DNA from: Catenulispora sp.
Lineage (GTDB): Bacteria; Actinomycetota; Actinomycetes; Streptomycetales; Catenulisporaceae
Assembly (NCBI GenBank): GCA_013361685.1
Contig: JABFXP010000642.1
Location: forward strand, 1 to 36,530
DNA length: 36,530 bases
Direction: 5' to 3'
This document shows positions 19,781 through 28,925 of the stretch, piece after piece. The notes under the pieces were generated by a model, which did no database searches, was not told the DNA's origin, and saw nothing but the letters and a program-made list of their open reading frames with translations. Position 1 is the first letter of the stretch, and each line of letters opens with the position of its first letter. The position numbers and the translations under genes were made by a program.

Positions 19781-20096
19781 TCCTGTGGAGGAAAGCCCTA
19801 ATTGACGCGTACCGGCGCGGGTGCTCCGGGCCGCCGGATCCGGCCGGCGCCGGGCTTGGAAGGGCTCGGCGAATCTCGGCGGTGACCTGTGGGTGTCGGG
19901 ATGATCACGATGGGTATTGACTTCGTAAAATTCTGATCAACTCCAGGGCGGCCGATCAAAGTCTCGTACTTTCTACCCTTGTTTTCGCCTTGCGGCGTCT
20001 ATAGAAATGACCGACGCGGGCTCGTATCCCCTGCCCGGCACTCGTCCATTTTCGGGTAATGGATACCTTCGTCCCTCTTTTCGGGAAGGGAAGATT
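19781..20096 (+). promoter_or_regulatory. Upstream and leader region of the S53 peptidase gene
   Basis: No gene is seen. The part from 19900 is the least GC-rich in the window. It has two TGATCA sites about 30 bases apart near 19902-19940, and a possible promoter with TTGTTT (19979-19984), 15 bases, then TATAGA (20000-20005). Two small RNA hairpins follow: TCCATT/AATGGA (20045-20063), and an imperfect one (20067-20093) whose 3' arm contains the ribosome binding site. None is proven. Confidence 0.35.
20067..20093 (+). promoter_or_regulatory. Imperfect hairpin masking the peptidase ribosome binding site
   Basis: CTTC (20067-20070) can pair with GAAG (20090-20093) and TCCC (20072-20075) with GGGA (20083-20086), around a TCTTTTC loop. 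The 3' arm is the GGGAAGGGAAG Shine-Dalgarno itself. The pairing is short and bulged, so control of translation is only a possibility. Confidence 0.3.
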
Positions 20097-22118
20097 ATGA
20101 CCAAAGCCGTACCCCGGCACCGCAGGCGAATAGCTTCGGCCACCACCCTCACGGCCGTAGCCGCGTTCGTGACCGCCGGTGTGGCCTTCGCCGCGCCGTC
20201 GAACGCCGACAGCGGCGGCACCGCCACGCTGTCCGGCACCACTCCGGGCTACGCCACCGCCTCGGCCGACCAGGGCCAGACGGCCGGTGCCGCGCAGCTG
20301 ACGGTGCGCGTGTACCTCGCCGGTCAGGACGCCGCCGGCCTGGACGCCTACGCCAAGGCCGTGTCGGACCCCAACAGCGCCAGCTACCGGCACTTCCTGA
20401 GCGCCGCCGAGGTCCGCAACCGGTTCGGCGCCTCGCAGGCCCAGACCGAGGCCGTCACCAAGTGGCTGACCGGGGCCGGGCTCACCGTCACCGGCACCAC
20501 CACGCACTGGGTGGACGTCAAGGGCAGCGTGGACGCCGCGCAGAAGGCCTTCGGCACCCGGCTGCACAACTTCAGCACCCCGGCCGGCACGCTGCGCAGC
20601 AACGCCAGCGACGTGAAGGTCCCGGCGGACGTGGCCGCGGCGATCCTCGGCGTGGCGGGCCTGGCGCAGAGCACGCAGCACGCGGTGACCAACCACCAGA
20701 AGATCGACAACACCGCGCGCGGCCCGGTCCAGAACAACGACCCGTCGTGCTCTGACTACTACGGCCAGAAGCTCGCGCCGTCCTCGGCCCCGGCCGTGCC
20801 CTCGGGCTACACCACGCCGGCCACGCTGGCGCAGTGCTCGTTGGTGCCCTCGGAGCTGCGGGACGCCTACGGCGTGACCAAGACCGGCCTGACCGGCAAG
20901 GGCGCCACGATCGCGATCGTGAACTGGTACGGCTCCCCGACCATGGAGGCCGACGCCAACAAGTACTCGATCGCCCACGGCGACAAGCCGTTCGCCCCCG
21001 GGCAGTACTCCGAGGTGAACGACCCGTCGCAGTGGACGCACCAGGACCTGTGCGGCGGCGGCGACTTCGGCGAGGAGTCGCTCGACGTGGAGATGGCGCA
21101 CGGCCTGGCGCCGGACGCCAAGGTGATCACCGTCGCGGCGAACTCCTGCTTCGACAGCGACCTGCTGGCCGCCGAGGCGACCATCGTCGACAACCACCTG
21201 GCCGACATCGTGTCGAACAGCTGGGGCGAGATCATGTACTCCACCGCCGGCGACATCGACCCGGCGGCGATGAAGGCGTACGACCAGATCTTCAAGCAGG
21301 GCGCGGTGGAGGGCATCGCCTTCGACTTCTCCAGCGGCGACTGCATGAACGGCGACGCCTACTCCACCGCCACCGGCCTGAACTGCGACCCGACCGCCTC
21401 GCGCGCGCAGGTCCAGTGGCCGACCAGCTCGGCGTGGGTGACCTCGGTCGGCGGCACCGCTCTGGGGCTGAACAAGAACGGCTACAGCTTCGAGGCTCCG
21501 ATGGCCGACACCCGCAGCGGTCGCACCGCTCCGGGCGCCACCGCGTGGGCCCCGGGCGGCCAGACCTTCGGCGCCGGCGGCGGCGTGAGCGAGACCATCG
21601 CCCAGCCGTGGTACCAGAGCTGGACCGTGCCGCACAGCATGGCCACCACTCTGATGGACGGGACCAAGACCGCGCAGCCCAAGCGCACCATCCCGGACAT
21701 CTCGCTGAACGGTGACCTGTACTTCAGCAGCACCCTGGTGGGCCAGACCGACCAGGCGTCGGGCACCTACTCCGAGGGCGGCTACGGCGGCACCTCGGTG
21801 TCGGCTCCGGCCTGGGCGGGCGTTCTGGCCTCCGCGCAGCAGGCGCAGTGGGGCATCCCGGTCGGCTTCGCCAACCCGGCGATCTACGCCCGCGGCTGGC
21901 TGACCAACGACGTGGTGCAGACGCCGCGCCAGATCGCCGGCTCGGCGGTGCACTCGGTGGTGTTCCAGTACCCGGCCAGCAGCCCGGTGGCCGGCATGTA
22001 CCGGCTCATCTCCTACGGCGTGGACGAGGGCCTGCCCGCCGCCCGCGGGTACGACCTGGCCACCGGCGTCGGTTCGCCGAACGCCGTGTTCCTGCGGTCG
22101 TTCGGGTTCGGCCGCTGA
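20097..22118 (+). CDS. Secreted S53 (sedolisin/kumamolisin) serine-carboxyl peptidase
   Basis: The 673-residue protein has a signal peptide (positively charged 1-11, hydrophobic 12-31, A-F-A site near 32), a pro-kumamolisin activation domain (about 65-200, with YRHFLSAAEVRNRFG), and the S53 catalytic domain. The Glu and Asp of the triad lie in EESLD (326-330), the oxyanion Asp in FSSGD (415), and the nucleophile Ser567 in GGTSVSAPAWAG. The C-terminal GYDLATGVGSPN is the calcium-site region. It would digest proteins outside the cell, with the best activity at acid pH for this family. A strong GGGAAGGGAAG site sits before the ATG. The gene is flanked by clear hairpin terminators and is transcribed alone. 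Confidence 0.95.
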   Translation: MTKAVPRHRRRIASATTLTAVAAFVTAGVAFAAPSNADSGGTATLSGTTPGYATASADQGQTAGAAQLTVRVYLAGQDAAGLDAYAKAVSDPNSASYRHFLSAAEVRNRFGASQAQTEAVTKWLTGAGLTVTGTTTHWVDVKGSVDAAQKAFGTRLHNFSTPAGTLRSNASDVKVPADVAAAILGVAGLAQSTQHAVTNHQKIDNTARGPVQNNDPSCSDYYGQKLAPSSAPAVPSGYTTPATLAQCSLVPSELRDAYGVTKTGLTGKGATIAIVNWYGSPTMEADANKYSIAHGDKPFAPGQYSEVNDPSQWTHQDLCGGGDFGEESLDVEMAHGLAPDAKVITVAANSCFDSDLLAAEATIVDNHLADIVSNSWGEIMYSTAGDIDPAAMKAYDQIFKQGAVEGIAFDFSSGDCMNGDAYSTATGLNCDPTASRAQVQWPTSSAWVTSVGGTALGLNKNGYSFEAPMADTRSGRTAPGATAWAPGGQTFGAGGGVSETIAQPWYQSWTVPHSMATTLMDGTKTAQPKRTIPDISLNGDLYFSSTLVGQTDQASGTYSEGGYGGTSVSAPAWAGVLASAQQAQWGIPVGFANPAIYARGWLTNDVVQTPRQIAGSAVHSVVFQYPASSPVAGMYRLISYGVDEGLPAARGYDLATGVGSPNAVFLRSFGFGR

Positions 22119-22186
22119 GCCGGACGTGAGTCCGGCGCGGTGCGCTATGTGGTACCGCGCTGTGCTGTGAACTGAGCAAGACACAG

Positions 22187-22224
22187 GCCGGCCGTTCCGC
22201 CTCTTCGGAGGCGGGGCGGCCGGC
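22187..22224 (+). terminator. Strong hairpin terminator with TTCG loop
   Basis: The arms 22187-22203 and 22208-22224 pair over 17 positions, including two T-G wobbles, and close on a TTCG tetraloop inside a C-G pair, the most stable RNA loop known. A T-rich TTCCTTGTT follows. It lies 69 bases after the S53 peptidase stop. Confidence 0.85.
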
Positions 22225-22344
22225 TTCCTTGTTGCGCGACACCGGGGCGCGGGTGCATCATCGGTGACTGTCCATCGTCCCCGATGACCACAAACGAAGC
22301 ATGCTGATGAACAGATCGGAGGCCGTCGACACCGCCGTGACCCG

Positions 22345-23874
22345 ATGACGGGAACGGAGCCGGTGCGAACGGCGATCCTGACTGACACCCGAGCCTCGGC
22401 GGCCATAGCGGCCCGGCGCTACGGGGTCCCCCCGACGATGATCGCGGCCGCTGCCCGGCGGCGTGCGGTCGGTGACTGGCGCGGCGCCTGTGCGGCGGCC
22501 GATGTCGATGTGTATGTGAACCCTGATGCGGTCCGGCGGCGGTATGGCGCCGAGACGGCGGGCCGGCTGCTCACGGGTCTGCGTGAGCTCTCCCCGGATC
22601 TGCTGCGGTGGCATCTGCCGCGGCGGGCGCACGGTGCGGGGGAGCTGCTGGCCGGGCTTTTCGTGCCGATCGCGGAGTTCGACGCTGACGGACGGGTGCT
22701 GTCGCTGGTCGCGATGACGCCGCGGTCGGCGCTGGAGGCCGGGCAGCGCATCGTGCTGACGGTGCTGGAGAACGGCGTGCGGCCGCGGCCGGTGGTGGCC
22801 GGCGATCCGGTGGTGCGTGCGCTGCTGGAGAGCCTGCACCTGAAGCACGCGGCCCGGCACAGTCTGGTGCGGCATCCGATGTTCTGGAGTGCGGAACGGG
22901 CTTCGGACCTGGCGGTGACGCGTGACGTCAGCGCTGAGGCGCAGGAGATCGTGCGGCTGCAGGACGCGGGCTCGTTCGCGGCGGCCTGGCAGCTGGCAGG
23001 GTTCTCATTCGCCGTCGATGACACACTGCCGAGCCGGGCACGGTGGCTGGCCGGACTGCCGGTGCGGCTGCCGGGGCTCGCGGACCGGATCCGGGCCGCG
23101 GTGCCGGGCGTGGACGCGGCGGTTCTGCGTTCGGGGCCGGGCGCGCTCGTGCTCTCCGGCCTGACGTCGGCCGCCGGGTCGGTCGTCGTCTCGGACGCGG
23201 ACGGCCGCGGGCTGGCCGCCGTTCCCACCGCCGTTTGGGCGCGGCCGGTGGACGTCGACCTCCTGCGCTGCGGCCTGCTCGGCGGCCACGAACTGCATCC
23301 CCTGATCGCGTCGGCCTTCGGGGAGCCGGAACCGGCCGCGGACGAGTCCGACGAGTCGGATGATTGGCTCTACCGCGAAGTCCCGTTCATCGCGGGCCGC
23401 CGAGCCGGCGGCGGTATCCCCACCCTGTGGATCCAGTGCGGCGCGGCCACCCACCGCGTGGTCCACCACAAGGGGACCTGGCGCTCGATCGACCATCTCG
23501 GCGCCGCCCACCGGGAATCCGTGCTGCGCCGGCTCGGCGGCCCGGGAAACCCCTGCCGCCAGGCCGCCGACTACCTCGCGTCGGGCCGGCACGTCATCGA
23601 CCTCGCCGAAAGCCTGCTCCAGCACGGCCGGGCCGACGACGTCCGCCACCTCCTGCACACCCACGCCGGTGCCCAAGCCGCGCTGGACGAGATCGACCTC
23701 CCCGCGGGCGGCACGGTCGGCGAAGCCCTGGCGACCCTCCGGGAGAACACCCTCCGGCTCCGGATGCTCCTGGCCGGTGCTGTCCGGCCTCGCGACACCC
23801 GCAGTTCCCTGGCCCTACCCACCATTGGCAGCCGTCGGACCCGATTGGAGGTCCCGGCCCGAACACACAGGTGA
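22345..23874 (+). CDS. Unrecognised first component of the MoxR/VWA gene set
   Basis: The 509-residue product has no domain I can name with certainty. The first 130 residues contain ARRYGVPPTMIAAAARRRAV, GDWRGACAAADVDVYVNPDA and LSPDLLRWHLPRRAHG, a combination I associate with proteins found beside MoxR ATPases in Streptomyces. The middle is alpha/beta. An acidic ADESDESDDW linker near residue 333 leads to a C-terminal part with IQCGAATHRVVHHKGTW and GGPGNPCRQA, where Cys and His could bind a metal. There is no signal peptide or membrane segment. The start is unsure: ATG at 22345, or GTG at 22363 with GGAG upstream. Its stop is 2 bases before the ATPase ATG (and overlaps a GTG in the same frame), so the three genes are translated together. 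It may be the substrate adaptor or effector. Confidence 0.8.
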   Translation: MTGTEPVRTAILTDTRASAAIAARRYGVPPTMIAAAARRRAVGDWRGACAAADVDVYVNPDAVRRRYGAETAGRLLTGLRELSPDLLRWHLPRRAHGAGELLAGLFVPIAEFDADGRVLSLVAMTPRSALEAGQRIVLTVLENGVRPRPVVAGDPVVRALLESLHLKHAARHSLVRHPMFWSAERASDLAVTRDVSAEAQEIVRLQDAGSFAAAWQLAGFSFAVDDTLPSRARWLAGLPVRLPGLADRIRAAVPGVDAAVLRSGPGALVLSGLTSAAGSVVVSDADGRGLAAVPTAVWARPVDVDLLRCGLLGGHELHPLIASAFGEPEPAADESDESDDWLYREVPFIAGRRAGGGIPTLWIQCGAATHRVVHHKGTWRSIDHLGAAHRESVLRRLGGPGNPCRQAADYLASGRHVIDLAESLLQHGRADDVRHLLHTHAGAQAALDEIDLPAGGTVGEALATLRENTLRLRMLLAGAVRPRDTRSSLALPTIGSRRTRLEVPARTHR

Positions 23875-23876
23875 CC

Positions 23877-25151
23877 ATGACACTGACTTCAGACATTCAG
23901 GCTTCTGCGATCCACGAGCTCGACGAGCTCAGTGATCTCGACGAGATCGCCAACACCGGCGACCCCGCCGGCCTCACCGCCGAGCGCCGCCAGCTCCTGG
24001 CCGCCGACCAGCTCATAGCCCTGACCCGCGCCTCCGTCACCGAGCCCGGGTCCGATCCCACCGTGCAGGCGCTGGCGCTCGCCGCCGCGGCCAACCTGCC
24101 GGTCCTGCTCTGGGGCCAGCCGGGCATCGGCAAGTCCTCGACCCTCGTGCAGCTGGCGCGCGGCCTGGACCTGCCGTTGGAGACGGTGATCGCGAGCGTG
24201 CACGATCCGTCGGACTTCGCCGGCCTGCCGGTCGTCGGAGCCGATCCGGCGGTGCGCGGGGTGGCGATGGCGCCGCCGGACTGGGCGGTGCGGCTGAGCC
24301 GGGCCGGGCACGGACTGCTGTTCCTGGACGAGATCTCCTCCGCGCCGCCGGCGGTGCAGGCCGCTTTGCTGCGGGTCGTGCTGGAACGGCATGTCGGGAG
24401 CCTGGCGCTGCCCGCGGGCGTGCGCATCGTCGCCGCCGCGAACCCGGCGGGCAGCGCCGCCGACGGGTGGCAGCTCGCGCCGCCGCTGGCCAACCGCTTC
24501 GTGCACCTGGCGTGGACGCACGATCCCGACGTCGTGGTCCGCGGCCTCGGCGGCACGTGGCCGCACATCCCGTTGCCCCGCCTGGATCCCGCGCGGCTGG
24601 GGTCGTCGGTGGCGCGGGCCCGGGCCGCGGTCTGCGCGTTCCTGACCGTGCGGCCCGACTACACGCACCGGATGCCGAAGTCGGCCGCCGACCGCGCCGG
24701 GGCCTGGCCGTCCCCGCGCACCTGGGAGATGGCGATGCGGCTGCTGGCCTTCGGCTACGCCGCCGACGCCGACATGGAGGCCGTCGCCATCGCGATCCGC
24801 GGGTCGGTGGGGGACGGCGCCGGGCTGGAGCTGATGGCGTTCCTGGAGCGGCGCGACCTGCCGGACCCCGAGGCGGTGCTCGCCGACCCGGAGTCCGCCG
24901 AACTGCCCGAGCGCGGCGACCTCGTGCACGCGACGCTCGCGGCGGTCGTCGACGCGGTCGCGCGCGACACCGCCCGCGTCCGCTGGGAGGCGGCGTGGCG
25001 GCTGGTGGCGCGGCTGGCCGTCACGGTGCCGGTGGATCTGCTCGCGGCACCTGCCATGCAGCTCGCGGCGCTGCGGCGTCCGGAGTGGGAGCTGCCCGAG
25101 CAACTCGACAACCTGAGGGGGCTGGAGGCGATGATGGCGTGGGGCGAGTGA
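23877..25151 (+). CDS. MoxR-type AAA+ ATPase
   Basis: The 424-residue ATPase has Walker A GQPGIGKSS (80-88), Walker B LLFLDEIS (147-154), a sensor-1 AAANP (187-190), and DFAGLPV between them as in MoxR ATPases, where it reaches the substrate. An arginine-finger candidate follows in PPLANRFVHL. MoxR proteins form hexamers that act as chaperones or activators together with VWA proteins, as in RavA-ViaA. Its stop overlaps the VWA start as GTGA, a strong sign that the two are a functional pair. The ATG at 23877 or the in-frame GTG at 23871 could start it; neither has a clear ribosome binding site, so translation is probably coupled to the gene before. Confidence 0.92.
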   Translation: MTLTSDIQASAIHELDELSDLDEIANTGDPAGLTAERRQLLAADQLIALTRASVTEPGSDPTVQALALAAAANLPVLLWGQPGIGKSSTLVQLARGLDLPLETVIASVHDPSDFAGLPVVGADPAVRGVAMAPPDWAVRLSRAGHGLLFLDEISSAPPAVQAALLRVVLERHVGSLALPAGVRIVAAANPAGSAADGWQLAPPLANRFVHLAWTHDPDVVVRGLGGTWPHIPLPRLDPARLGSSVARARAAVCAFLTVRPDYTHRMPKSAADRAGAWPSPRTWEMAMRLLAFGYAADADMEAVAIAIRGSVGDGAGLELMAFLERRDLPDPEAVLADPESAELPERGDLVHATLAAVVDAVARDTARVRWEAAWRLVARLAVTVPVDLLAAPAMQLAALRRPEWELPEQLDNLRGLEAMMAWGE

Positions 25152-26668
25152 AGGCGCCGGAGAGCGCGCCGGAGAAGGGCCGGACTGCGGAAAGCCGGAC
25201 CAGCGCGCAGCAAGGACGGACCCTGAGGATCCCGACCCCGGCCGTCCTGGCCGGACCGAGCCGGCTCACCGCGCGGCCGCTCACCTTTCCGCTCACGGGC
25301 GCCGGGGCCGGACCCGTCCGCATCGCAGCACCCATCCATCGCCCGGCCGTCGTCCGCGAACCGGCGGCCACCGCACTGGACACGGCCAAGCTCCTCGCCG
25401 CCCGCCGGCTCGCGGTGACCACCTGCCCCTACCTCGCGGTGGCGCTGCACGCTCTGACCATCGTCCCGACCTACACGGTGCGCACGATGGCCGTCGATGC
25501 TTTCTGGCGCTGCTACGTCAACCCGGAGTTCGTCGACAGCCTGCTGCTGCGCGAACTCGCCGCCATCTGGCTGCACGAGGTGTCGCACCTCATCCGCGAC
25601 CACCACAGCCGCGCCGACAAGCTGCGGGAGGACAGCGTCCGGCACGGCGCCGCGGGCCGGCCCGGCACCGCCGCGCTCGATCCCGAGCAGCCCGCCCGGG
25701 AGAAGGTGCGACTGAACATCGCCATGGACTTGGAGATCAACGACGACCTTCTGCAAGGGCTGGTGGGCGACTCCGACCCCGAAACGTGTCCGCGGCTGCC
25801 CGCCGGCGCCCTGACGCCGCAGAGTCTCCGACTCGTCGAACGCGATCTGTTCGAGGAGTATCTCCGAGACCTGACGCCGAGCATCGTGAGCCGGTTCGAG
25901 CACCTCATCGACTGCGGTTCGGGCGCTCACAGCGGGCGCGTGCCCTGGGACGCCGACGGCGAGGGCGCGCACCCGCTCGGCCGCCGCGAGGCCGAGGCCA
26001 TCCGGATCAGCGTCCGCGACGCGGTGAACGCCGGGCGCGGCACCGCTCCCGAAGGCTGGCAGCGCTGGGCCGAGCGTTACGGCAAGGCGCCGCAGGACTG
26101 GCGCCAACTGCTCGGCGCGGCGTTCCGCACCAGCCTCGGAGTGGCCGGCGGCGCGGGCGACTACACCTATCGGCGCCCGAGCCGCCGCAGCCAGAGCCTG
26201 GGCGGCGGCCTGGTGCTGCCGAGCCTGCGGCGGCCGCTGCCGCACGTGGCGGTGGTCATCGACACTTCCGGTTCGGTGTCCGACGTGGACCTCGGCAGCG
26301 CCCTGACCGAGCTGGCGGCGATCACCCGCGCCACCGGAGTGAGCGGCGACCACGTGTCCGTCTACAGCTGCGACGCCGCCGTCCACACCGCGCAACAGGT
26401 CTGCTGGGCTGAGGACATCGCGCTGGTCGGCGGCGGCGGGACCGACCTGCGCCAAGGCATCCGCCGCGCGGTGGCGCGGGCGCCGCGGCCCGACGTCGTG
26501 GTGGTGCTCACGGACGGGTTCACGCCCTGGCCCGAAGCCGAGATCGGGTGCCGCGTCATCGCCGGCATCTTCGAGTCCGCACGCCGCCGCGACTACACCT
26601 ACGACGGGCACGGGAACCTCATCGACCTGCGGCCGCCGGGATGGGTCGAGACGGTGCGCCTGGAGTGA
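25148..26668 (+). CDS. Metallopeptidase-like/VWA fusion protein (DUF2201 type)
   Basis: The 506-residue product has a disordered N-terminus (1-70), a metallopeptidase-like domain with HEVSH (143-147, an HExxH zinc motif) followed by a helix with NIAMDLEINDDLL (190-202) that could give the third ligand, and a C-terminal VWA-like domain. That domain has a complete MIDAS: DTSGS (372-376), GGGGTDLRQG with Thr432, and VLTDGFTP (455-457 Asp). This matches the DUF2201_N plus DUF2201 pattern. The MIDAS would bind the MoxR ATPase or a substrate by a metal, and the HExxH would cleave or only bind. The GTG overlaps the ATPase stop by 4 bases. Its 3' end overlaps the convergent HEAT-like gene by 50 bases. 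Confidence 0.9.
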   Translation: MKAPESAPEKGRTAESRTSAQQGRTLRIPTPAVLAGPSRLTARPLTFPLTGAGAGPVRIAAPIHRPAVVREPAATALDTAKLLAARRLAVTTCPYLAVALHALTIVPTYTVRTMAVDAFWRCYVNPEFVDSLLLRELAAIWLHEVSHLIRDHHSRADKLREDSVRHGAAGRPGTAALDPEQPAREKVRLNIAMDLEINDDLLQGLVGDSDPETCPRLPAGALTPQSLRLVERDLFEEYLRDLTPSIVSRFEHLIDCGSGAHSGRVPWDADGEGAHPLGRREAEAIRISVRDAVNAGRGTAPEGWQRWAERYGKAPQDWRQLLGAAFRTSLGVAGGAGDYTYRRPSRRSQSLGGGLVLPSLRRPLPHVAVVIDTSGSVSDVDLGSALTELAAITRATGVSGDHVSVYSCDAAVHTAQQVCWAEDIALVGGGGTDLRQGIRRAVARAPRPDVVVVLTDGFTPWPEAEIGCRVIAGIFESARRRDYTYDGHGNLIDLRPPGWVETVRLE

Positions 26669-28925
26669 GCACGTCTTCGATCAGTACGCGTAGTTGTTCG
26701 TCCTCGGAGATCGTCGAGGCTGACATGCCGCGCGTGACGAGGCGTTCATCGCGGTCCGCCAGGTCTTGCAAGGCTTGGCGGACCGTGCCGGTGATCGCCT
26801 CCGGAGCCAACCGGGCGAGGGCTTCGACCGGAGGGTACTGATGCATGAAGAAGCTGCCCGCGCTGATCGCTGCGACCAGTTTCTCGGCGAGGTCGCGATG
26901 ACCGGACAGGGTGTCGAACACGTCTGGCTGAACGGCTCGCAGGGCTTCTGCTGAGGGGGCACAGTAATCGGGCATGTCGAGGAGGCGTATCAGTGCTGGA
27001 ACGAGTGGCTGACCGGCGGTGCCCGTCTCGGCGGCGGCTTTGATCGCCGAGATGACAGCCCAGGTGGCGCCTCTGAACGTGCGGTCGGCCCACGTCAGGG
27101 CTTCGGCGTAGACGTCGACGACGGCTTCGGGCGCGCCGCCGTGACGCCACAGAGCTCGGGCCACACTGACTCGGGCCTTCAGATCCGGCACAGTTTTGGA
27201 CGGTGTTGTGGTTGCGCGCGCCAGCGCCTCGGCTGATGCGGAGGCGAGCTGTTCGTTGTGGCCGGTCAACTCGGCGGCGGCTTTGGCGGCTGTCTCGAGT
27301 TCTGATCCGGTGAGCGTCAGACCGTGCGTCACGGCGTCGAGCAGCGGGTCGGCGTCGCCGGTGAGCGTATGGAGGGCCTGGGCGGCGACGACGCGCGTGG
27401 AGAAGGCGTCGGACTGCATGGCTTGCTTGAGCGCTTCGACGACCTCCGATGTCGCCACGCCCAGGGCGGCGAGCGTCGGTGCCGCTGCCAGCGGGAACAG
27501 GTGCAGGCCGGCGGCGACGTCGGGAGCGGCGTCAGCAGCCTGCTCGCCCCACGCTTTGAGCACGGTGCAGAGGTGGATGGGCTCGTTCTTCTGCTGCAAG
27601 GAGATCACGAAACTCGGCCAGTTCGGCGTGCCCGCCGGGTGGGGTGCGGTGCTGCCGGGCAGGGCTTGCAGGCGACTGCGGATCGCGGTGAAAAGCCCGG
27701 CGTGGAAGGGGAATCGGTCTGGCTGCTCCGTGCTCGCCTTCGCTGCGGCTTCGAGCGCTCGGGGCCGGTGCGGCAGGTCGCGGGCCAGGAGGTCGGTTGC
27801 TGCGGGCACGCCCCATTCGAAGAGGGTGGACAGGGCGGAATCCGCTTCGGTGGTTGTGTCGGTGTCGGTGTCGGTGTCGGTGTCCGCGTTCGTGTTCGCG
27901 TCCTGTCCGGAACGCGGGCGATCGGCGATCGCGAGCATCGTCTCCGCTGCCGATGGCGCCGCGGACGGGCCGATGAGGCGCAGCACGGCCAGCGCCGCAT
28001 CGCTGACCTCGGCGGACGCATGGACCAGGGACGCCAGCGACGGAAGCAGCAACCGGGCGGCGCCGCGGGACCGCATGACAAGGGTCTGGGCTGAGCCGAC
28101 GCCGCGCAGCAGGATCTCGTCGGATGCGGCCCTGTCGGCGTCGAGTGCGGGGGCCACGAGGGAGACGGCGACCTCGGCGCCGTGGGTGCGCAGCACGACG
28201 GGCACGAGATGCTGGAAGCGGACGTGCCACGGCTGTCCTCGGTAATCGTCCGTCTTGGCGGTCATCCACGCGCTGGCTGCCTCGGCCATTTCCGCATCCC
28301 ACGGTGCGCCGGCGCTCGAAGCCAGGACGTAGACGGCGGTCGTTCGGACCTGGGCAGGCTCGTCGGCGCCGAGCAACCGGCGCGCGCGGACGTCTGTGAT
28401 CACGGGATCGACGAGGTGCAGCGCGTGGAGCAGGCCGCCCCGGACGTCGGCGTTCGTTTCGACCTGCCAGCGTTCGGCCAGCGGGGCGATGTAGCGGTCG
28501 GCGTCGCGGGTCTGGGCCAGTACCCAGGCGGTCAGTGCCCGTGTTCCGGGGTCGGCGTCGGAGAGCAGGGGCAGCAGGGCTGCGCCGTGCTCCGCGACCG
28601 CTTGCCGCGCGGCGTCGGGCGATGGCAGCGCGCGGGTGTCGGAGCTTTCGGTGATGACGCACAGCAGCTCCAGTACGGGGAGCCGCTGGATGCCGGAGAC
28701 GGCGAGCCGTACCAGGAACGGCACGGTGGCGACCGTCGCGGGATAGACAGAACCCTGATGCGCGAGACTGCTTACGAGCTCGTAGTGGGCGTCCGCCACC
28801 GCCTCGGCGTCGTTCGAAGCCAGCCTGCGCAGCAGATCAGGCGTGTCGCCGGCAGGACCGTAGGCGTGGGTGAGGGCGGACCACTCGACCGAGTCCATGC
28901 CGTGGAGCGGATCGTCTGCGCGCAT
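26619..28925 (-). CDS. Large HEAT-like repeat protein
   Basis: The 768-residue product is almost entirely alpha-helical with repeated helix pairs, such as TVPFLVRLAVSGIQRLPVLELL, ALLPLLSDADPGTRALTAWVL and ARLLLPSLASLVHASAEVSDA, and more toward the C-terminus. This is the pattern of HEAT/armadillo solenoids, which act as protein-binding scaffolds. A TDTDTDTD linker near residue 345 splits two solenoid halves. No enzyme domain or signal peptide is seen. The ATG at 28925 is preceded by a weak GAG; ATG at 28898 is an alternative. It runs toward the MoxR/VWA genes and overlaps the VWA gene by 50 bases, so the two units may influence each other by antisense transcription or work together. Confidence 0.8.
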   Translation of the reverse strand: MRADDPLHGMDSVEWSALTHAYGPAGDTPDLLRRLASNDAEAVADAHYELVSSLAHQGSVYPATVATVPFLVRLAVSGIQRLPVLELLCVITESSDTRALPSPDAARQAVAEHGAALLPLLSDADPGTRALTAWVLAQTRDADRYIAPLAERWQVETNADVRGGLLHALHLVDPVITDVRARRLLGADEPAQVRTTAVYVLASSAGAPWDAEMAEAASAWMTAKTDDYRGQPWHVRFQHLVPVVLRTHGAEVAVSLVAPALDADRAASDEILLRGVGSAQTLVMRSRGAARLLLPSLASLVHASAEVSDAALAVLRLIGPSAAPSAAETMLAIADRPRSGQDANTNADTDTDTDTDTTTEADSALSTLFEWGVPAATDLLARDLPHRPRALEAAAKASTEQPDRFPFHAGLFTAIRSRLQALPGSTAPHPAGTPNWPSFVISLQQKNEPIHLCTVLKAWGEQAADAAPDVAAGLHLFPLAAAPTLAALGVATSEVVEALKQAMQSDAFSTRVVAAQALHTLTGDADPLLDAVTHGLTLTGSELETAAKAAAELTGHNEQLASASAEALARATTTPSKTVPDLKARVSVARALWRHGGAPEAVVDVYAEALTWADRTFRGATWAVISAIKAAAETGTAGQPLVPALIRLLDMPDYCAPSAEALRAVQPDVFDTLSGHRDLAEKLVAAISAGSFFMHQYPPVEALARLAPEAITGTVRQALQDLADRDERLVTRGMSASTISEDEQLRVLIEDVLTPGAPSRPIPAAAGR
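27856..27885. repeat. Hexanucleotide repeat coding for a Thr-Asp linker
   Basis: Four exact copies of GTGTCG (27856-27879) and a partial fifth. On the minus strand they encode alternating Thr and Asp in the linker of the HEAT-like protein. Units of 6 keep the frame when their number changes. Confidence 0.85.

Follow-up and report, generated by a model that had tools for sequence, protein, structure and literature searches.

A stretch of 36,530 nucleotides from Catenulispora sp. (GCA_013361685.1, contig JABFXP010000642.1; hereafter the window) carries three adjoining genes, encoding a protein of an undescribed family (gene 1), a MoxR-type AAA+ ATPase (gene 2) and a putative metallopeptidase fused to a VWA domain (gene 3). 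Many soil actinomycetes carry the trio. It is a conserved unit, beyond chance, because the order gene 1-gene 2-gene 3 is kept in 74 of 80 named relatives. We consider the chances about even that it is an adaptor-gated, ATP-driven metallopeptidase or a peptidase-type maturase; it would work most like a machine of adaptor, AAA+ ring and peptidase, or like a MoxR/VWA maturase with a peptidase step. This reading rests on the conserved unit, intact catalytic and metal-ion-dependent adhesion site (MIDAS) motifs, the association of gene 1 with a gene 3 clade whose peptidase motif is intact and a conserved leader sequence, together with a zincin-like fold predicted for gene 3. New here are the undescribed first component, its link to the peptidase-intact clade, and the leader.

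Conservation of the gene trio

The coordinates and starts of the three open reading frames (ORFs) were re-read from the window and are as follows.

22345..23874, plus strand: gene 1, undescribed family, proposed adaptor or target selector, 509 aa
23877..25151, plus strand: gene 2, MoxR-type AAA+ ATPase, ATG start at 23877, 2 nt after gene 1
25148..26668, plus strand: gene 3, fusion of metallopeptidase (DUF2201_N) and VWA (DUF2201) domains, 506 aa

The 2-nt gap and the 4-nt overlap of the original prediction were both found, the latter as GTGA, with the GTG start of gene 3 (25148) lying within the end of gene 2. Catenulispora loci have this tight junction of genes 1 and 2. The earliest start available to gene 2 in many Streptomyces loci lies tens to more than 100 nt past gene 1. 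The spacing is 127 and 132 nt in two annotated Streptomyces plasmids, on which the NCBI labels read, in order, hypothetical protein, MoxR family ATPase and VWA-like domain-containing protein.

Scanned with 23 aligned family members, genome contigs yielded at least 595 matching stretches, at least 514 of them encoding a relative. From Streptomyces, Kitasatospora, Nocardia, Micromonospora, Frankia, Amycolatopsis, Kribbella and others, 80 named loci (L numbers below; genomes have G numbers) were kept, picked by similarity to gene 1 or gene 3 and hence non-random. The three genes stood in order on one strand in 74 of these loci, and a contig end interrupted the trio in five (L082, L104, L126, L129 and L146). 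The genes are thus not separated in most relatives, a result that would have refuted the original prediction. The last of the 80, L136 (Streptomyces sp. SirexAA-E), lacks both partner genes; its gene 1 ORF is intact and has the leader described below, and its genome gave no gene 3 match at E≤0.001.

Of 60 genomes, 41 gave a gene 1 match, among them the window's own, which has a single copy. Among ten genomes of the same genus, G003 gave no gene 1 match and G001 a distant, partial one only. In a sample of 296 genomes of the class, gene 3 relatives were present in 43 at E≤1e-15 and close ones (E≤1e-95) in 31; gene 1 lay within ~4 kb of the close gene 3 in 30 of these 31 genomes, as judged by coordinates, in a reduced form in G113. 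The two are on different contigs in G016. Nine plasmid-collection records, seven from Streptomyces and two from Embleya, also carry the system. Across 71 loci compared in pairs, gene 1 was on average 58.7% identical, gene 2 78.8% and gene 3 69.8%, and gene 1 was less conserved than gene 3 in 2480 of 2485 locus pairs.

MoxR/DUF2201 pairs without gene 1 are present in other actinobacteria and in phages, and SirexAA-E keeps gene 1 without gene 3, as might be expected if gene 1 were a chance neighbour of an independent pair, for example an unrelated gene transcribed together with it. We find this explanation very improbable: the order in 74 of 80 loci spans many families although the outer neighbours change, and a single gene 3 clade goes with gene 1, as shown in the next section.

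The ATPase and metallopeptidase-VWA core

Gene 2 matched the Pfam family AAA_5 (2.1e-6; 28.2 bits, over the cut-off of 22) and fell just below the cut-off for AAA_3 (5.8e-6; 26.7 bits against 27), with matches to related AAA+ families as well. At least 97% of 76 aligned rows keep the core residues of its Walker A (GQPGIGKS) and Walker B (LLFLDE) motifs, and its relatives are annotated as MoxR family ATPases by NCBI. With this Walker core, MoxR-like Pfam families and an adjoining VWA gene, gene 2 is a MoxR AAA+ ATPase, as the original prediction had it.

Gene 3 matched DUF2201_N (PF13203, putative metallopeptidase; 9.6e-18, 65.2 bits against a cut-off of 23.2) and the VWA-like DUF2201 (PF09967; 1.7e-14, 54.5 bits against 26.4), and the locus belongs to the MoxR and DUF2201 families. 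Profile searches of the PDB brought up an M48 peptidase and the VWA domain of Mg-chelatase. The motifs of gene 3 lie as follows.

25574..25588, plus strand: HEVSH zinc-binding/catalytic motif, residues 143-147, from alignment and model
25715..25747, plus strand: NIAMDLEINDD motif, residues 190-200, on the next helix, likely the region of the third metal ligand
26261..26275, plus strand: MIDAS DTSGS, residues 372-376, completed by T432 (26441-26443) and D456 (26513-26515)

HExxH, the MIDAS residues (DxSxS, T and D) and N190, D194, E196, I197 and N198 are each present in 74 of 75 aligned rows; at HExxH and MIDAS the remaining row has a gap. The predicted union of HExxH and a MIDAS-complete VWA domain in one protein is therefore borne out by both domains and motifs. 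In the predicted model, gene 3 resembles zincins: its fold is zincin-like, and a helix carries HExxH. By motif and model the protein appears to be a gluzincin-like zincin and is a putative peptidase. The HExxH helix and the predicted fold of its N-terminal domain are shared with M48 peptidases and minigluzincins (BepA, selecase, abylysin), from which gene 3 differs in being fused to a VWA domain and coupled to a MoxR ATPase. The third metal ligand of M48 peptidases lies in a Glu motif, whereas in gene 3 that ligand may come from NxxxDxEIN.

The phage and actinobacterial pairs have the same two core proteins as the trio and differ in that gene 1 was not found there. Phage records matching gene 3 numbered 83; HExxH was intact in all three phage homologues examined, two of which had a MoxR-type gene nearby. 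The N and D of the NIAMDLEINDD motif are also kept in these three proteins and in the aligned gene-1-free copies. Acinetobacter phage At2 and Synechococcus phage MinM2 (L232) combine HExxH and the N-D motif with the MoxR-type neighbour, and in MinM2 the order is MoxR, DUF3150, DUF2201, with a different gene beside the core. In an N4-like phage, pfam13203 corresponds to the N4 gp25 homologue, according to the part of PMC6992544 consulted. Of 14 control genomes, those of Deinobacterium chartae and Thermotoga maritima also had PF13203.

A tree was built from 53 selected gene 3 proteins, and the tool flagged long branches in it. The 33 copies from loci with gene 1 formed one clade (98/99), and 15 close gene-1-free rows formed its sister group with lower support (93/90). 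We then counted the catalytic Glu in gene 3 copies with a profile score above 200. A gene 1 signal lay near 104 copies, 99 of them distinct, and HExxH was present in 96 of the 99; two could not be read through split frames (L085 and L127), and the one without the motif (L159, HLTSH) has nothing more of gene 1 nearby than a divergent protein that bears the small C/H domain described below. By comparison, the Glu was lost in 14 of 18 close copies without gene 1, kept in two (L160 and L164) and unreadable in two. Below the score cut, HExxH was kept in the gene-1-free copies L220, L221, L225 and L226 and not in L217, and L118 has a second, distant gene 3 copy (HEMLH) alongside its trio. The contrast in Glu therefore amounts in essence to a single split between closely related sister clades, and so to one evolutionary contrast.

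Most gene-1-free sister copies have lost the Glu and retained His, Asn and Asp, and therefore the fold has a non-catalytic use somewhere. This would suit a non-proteolytic maturation chaperone like RavA-ViaA, NorQ-NorD or CoxD-CoxE, serving cofactor insertion or the assembly of one target enzyme, in which the zincin fold binds metal or client without cutting and gene 1 is a client-specific scaffold. The Mg-chelatase VWA is the only PDB VWA profile match for gene 3 at E≤0.01, and maturing dedicated complexes is the role proposed for MoxR/VWA pairs in the part of PMC3893208 consulted. The trio also shares with RavA-ViaA and other MoxR/VWA chaperones an AAA+ MoxR protein and a MIDAS VWA partner encoded in one operon. 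The 96 of 99 gene-1-bearing copies with HExxH and the lack of a recurrent neighbouring enzyme as a possible client argue the other way, and we regard such a chaperone as rather unlikely. To our knowledge, ViaA has no zincin domain and RavA-ViaA no counterpart of gene 1.

Gene 1 and its leader

The original prediction of an unrecognised first component was upheld, and gene 1 did not turn out to be a housekeeping family: it matched no Pfam, NCBIfam or PADLOC model at E≤1 and, by sequence, nothing in the PDB at E≤1. When 76 members were compared with Pfam at 0.01, the sole hit was SelB-wing_2, at chance level. An AlphaFold2 model (predicted local distance difference test 75.6, predicted template modelling score 0.74) gave no PDB match when searched at full length. 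In the 76-protein alignment, gene 1 has a conserved N-terminal region (mean pairwise identity 69.6%), a variable middle, a small domain with conserved Cys and His (C/H domain) and a helical C-terminus.

22381..22794, plus strand: conserved N-terminal region, residues 13-150, with the motifs GDWxGAC and LxPDLLRWHxPR, from alignments
23416..23580, plus strand: small C/H domain, residues 358-412, with invariant C365, H370, H384 and C404
23581..23784, plus strand: helical C-terminal region, residues 413-480, profile-aligned to the first ankyrin repeats of longer paralogues

The two Cys and two His are invariant in 76 of 76 rows and may form a zinc site. In L173 (9148-9663, minus strand) gene 1 is cut down to 171 aa, the C/H domain alone, upstream of MoxR-DUF2201, with a normal gene 3 and leader; in L159 the domain lies within a 343-aa protein with a long proline run beside a gene-1-free pair. 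Because it stands alone as gene 1 in the one locus and beside the pair in the other, the C/H domain is the best candidate for the part touching the MoxR/DUF2201 core. In L159 (9451-11765) and L161-L163 we also observed a conserved ORF of 430-540 aa divergent to the gene-1-free MoxR/DUF2201 pair, followed in L159 by the 343-aa protein.

Six paralogues (L045-L048, L174 and L177) align with gene 1 along nearly its whole length. Pfam ankyrin matches occur in these longer forms only, with none in the window's gene 1 or the 76 short-form members. A leucine-rich repeat (LRR) gene (Pfam LRR_6) lies directly upstream of the ankyrin-type gene 1 in L045 (7745-8944, minus), L046 (8045-9184, minus) and L047 (5373-6641, plus), making a four-gene set of LRR, ankyrin gene 1, MoxR and DUF2201, and frame reading places one upstream in L174 and L177. 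Apparent gene 1 forms of ~900-1030 aa with an N-terminal extension of 330-450 residues were rejected as a wrong-frame ORF over the upstream LRR gene, and therefore the ankyrin-type paralogues measure ~550-625 aa. Both types of gene 1 are present in four genomes (G020, G026, G044 and G052). G001 holds a relative of another, partial kind, a 1359-aa protein (L044, 4590-8669, minus) that resembles gene 1 over the latter's first two thirds; genes 2 and 3 were not present in the 16 kb read there. The ankyrin repeats and the LRR gene in the paralogue group point to target recognition. The suggestion that gene 1 is a target selector is plausible because of these repeats and because gene 1 evolves fastest of the three.

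Upstream of gene 1, 77 of 78 loci (L081-L158, with the exception of L155) have a leader in which the start codon of a short ORF lies 5-9 nt after a -10-like TANNNT. The script demanded TANNNT and an in-frame start by definition; the finding is that 77 loci satisfied it. The start is ATG, in one locus GTG, and the ORF has 18 codons in 59 loci, 17 in 15 and 15 in three. Its stop overlaps the gene 1 start as TGATG in 76 loci and as TAGTG in one, stop and start having changed together. An example is the upstream ORF (uORF) MTTHSVDRLGAPSAQGEC of L097 (6921-6977), with the TGATG overlap. The simplest reading of this arrangement would be a leaderless ORF with termination-reinitiation into gene 1.

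Mean identity of the leader was 76.7% (59 loci, 1711 pairs) against 30.6% for the 60 nt further upstream; the first 60 nt of gene 1 gave 53.2% and its best-conserved 150 nt 73.2%. Third positions are as conserved as the others, so that the constraint falls on nucleotides as much as on codons. The uORF lengths do vary in frame, but we rejected a conserved leader peptide, given this pattern and an ending, QGEC, for which the Shine-Dalgarno sequence and the start of gene 1 largely account; the uORFs of L084 and L116 end in GER. Cysteine-responsive attenuation was considered too, as a hypothesis. There was no sign of structured RNA in RNAalifold on 75 distinct leaders (-1.6 kcal/mol, covariation term unfavourable) and no Rfam match over the gathering score in the window, L097 or L088. 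Of 60 order genomes, 29 contained the leader pattern, each as a single hit that lay at gene 1 (places compared by eye), and a reversed control pattern had no hit in the 60; the leader therefore looks operon-specific, the search for a regulon being negative. The regular expression used found no such leader at the ankyrin-type loci and gene-1-free pairs searched.

The Catenulispora form is divergent, coupled to gene 1 through ATGA, and gave no hit to the Streptomyces-type pattern. The window has these features ahead of gene 1.

22185..22226, plus strand: 19-bp hairpin without a T tail in the interval between a kumamolisin-like gene and the trio, likely a transcription boundary
22284..22307, plus strand: short ORF MTTNEAC and stop, possible Catenulispora counterpart of the relatives' uORF, by eye
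22301..22348, plus strand: second short ORF MLMNRSEAVDTAVTR and stop, its TGA overlapping the gene 1 ATG (ATGA), by eye

MTTNEAC has a counterpart, MTTNEEC, in L079 and L080 (found partly by script). Its lack of a canonical TANNNT and the earlier stop of the frame in the genus mate L002 weigh against its being the leader's counterpart. The arrangement of the second short ORF is the same in five genus mates (L002, L003, L004, L006 and L007) and is kept, with changed sequence, in the sister-genus loci L008 and L009. The hairpin region (22178-22250) folds at -49 kcal/mol (z -5.47, 0 of 200 shuffles as good); a scan for T-tract terminators did not detect the hairpin.

Comparison with ternary systems and proposed mechanism

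The MoxR-vWA-centric ternary systems (VMAP, iSTAND, FtsH and beta-propeller classes), in the part of PMC7159879 consulted, resemble the trio in having a MoxR ATPase, a VWA protein and a faster-evolving third protein, and rare metallopeptidase effectors are mentioned for them. They differ in that the trio's third protein matches no Pfam family and in that its peptidase is constant and N-terminal to the VWA domain, in place of a swapped C-terminal effector. By Pfam, no effector domain follows the VWA domain, gene 3 ending 44 residues past the VWA match, and no beta-propeller family was found in genes 1 and 3. Gene 1 has no VMAP domain, with 0 Pfam families at E≤1; Pfam presumably includes the VMAP models, and bpMoxR, a model from the same study as VMAP, is among the Pfam matches in the window, at 17.4 bits below its cut-off of 27. 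By the features tested, the trio does not appear to belong to the VMAP or beta-propeller systems.

The trio might still be a conflict or immunity system, a fifth class beside these four, with gene 1 as the sensor of an invader and gene 3 as the effector peptidase. The hosts of the listed loci are mostly mycelial, which was counted in favour of this idea, as were the likeness to the ternary systems, the nine plasmid records and the LRR and ankyrin modules of the paralogous type. Against it, genes 1 and 3 had no PADLOC model at E≤1, gene 1 has no Pfam family, gene 2 matched general ATPase models only weakly, and a single gene 3 architecture occurred in the loci read. Among 92 neighbour proteins of 26 loci, PADLOC matched 14 models with one member each, ten of them Cas12-type; as no background set was run, this is an absence of obvious signal and no statistical test. 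The 25 neighbouring Pfam families listed, out of 92, are for the most part those of metabolic enzymes and regulators. In addition, a kumamolisin-like S53 peptidase precursor gene upstream (20007-22118; Pfam Pro-kuma_activ) occupies the same place in five same-genus loci (L031-L034 and L037; identity 75-82%), although the flanks vary outside the genus. The conflict or defence link of the original prediction thus found no obvious association with defence genes, and we consider it quite unlikely. On the other side of the trio, a HEAT-repeat-like gene with a weak Pfam match (26619-28925, minus strand) converges on gene 3 and overlaps its last 50 nt.

An adaptor-gated peptidase or maturase would work in the following steps. 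Gene 1 would use its fast-evolving middle and ankyrin-like C-terminal parts to recognise a client, which its conserved N-terminal and C/H domains would dock. The MoxR ring of gene 2 would remodel the client. The VWA domain of gene 3 would bind the ring via MIDAS, as is thought for the VWA partners of MoxR proteins, and present the client to the gluzincin-type active site on the same polypeptide, where proteolysis may follow. Production of the machine would be tied to translation of the short, apparently leaderless uORF whose stop overlaps the gene 1 start, and in this way the leader may have a regulatory role.

Only tentatively do we go further and suggest that gene 1 represents a new class of AAA+ adaptor and the trio a split FtsH-like protease, with a MoxR ring, and not Clp, Lon or FtsH, feeding a metallopeptidase. 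Gene 1 would then license a catalysis that has decayed in the gene-1-free sister clade, and the leaderless leader ORF would gate synthesis by reading out cell translation.

MoxR ATPases are widespread, and their mode of action and targets are largely open. The trio offers a testable case of a MoxR-driven protease with a putative dedicated adaptor in genetically tractable Streptomyces. The contrast between clades, with HExxH kept beside gene 1 and the Glu mostly lost without it, makes a direct prediction on the role of gene 1, and the leader offers a handle on the timing of the machine's production.

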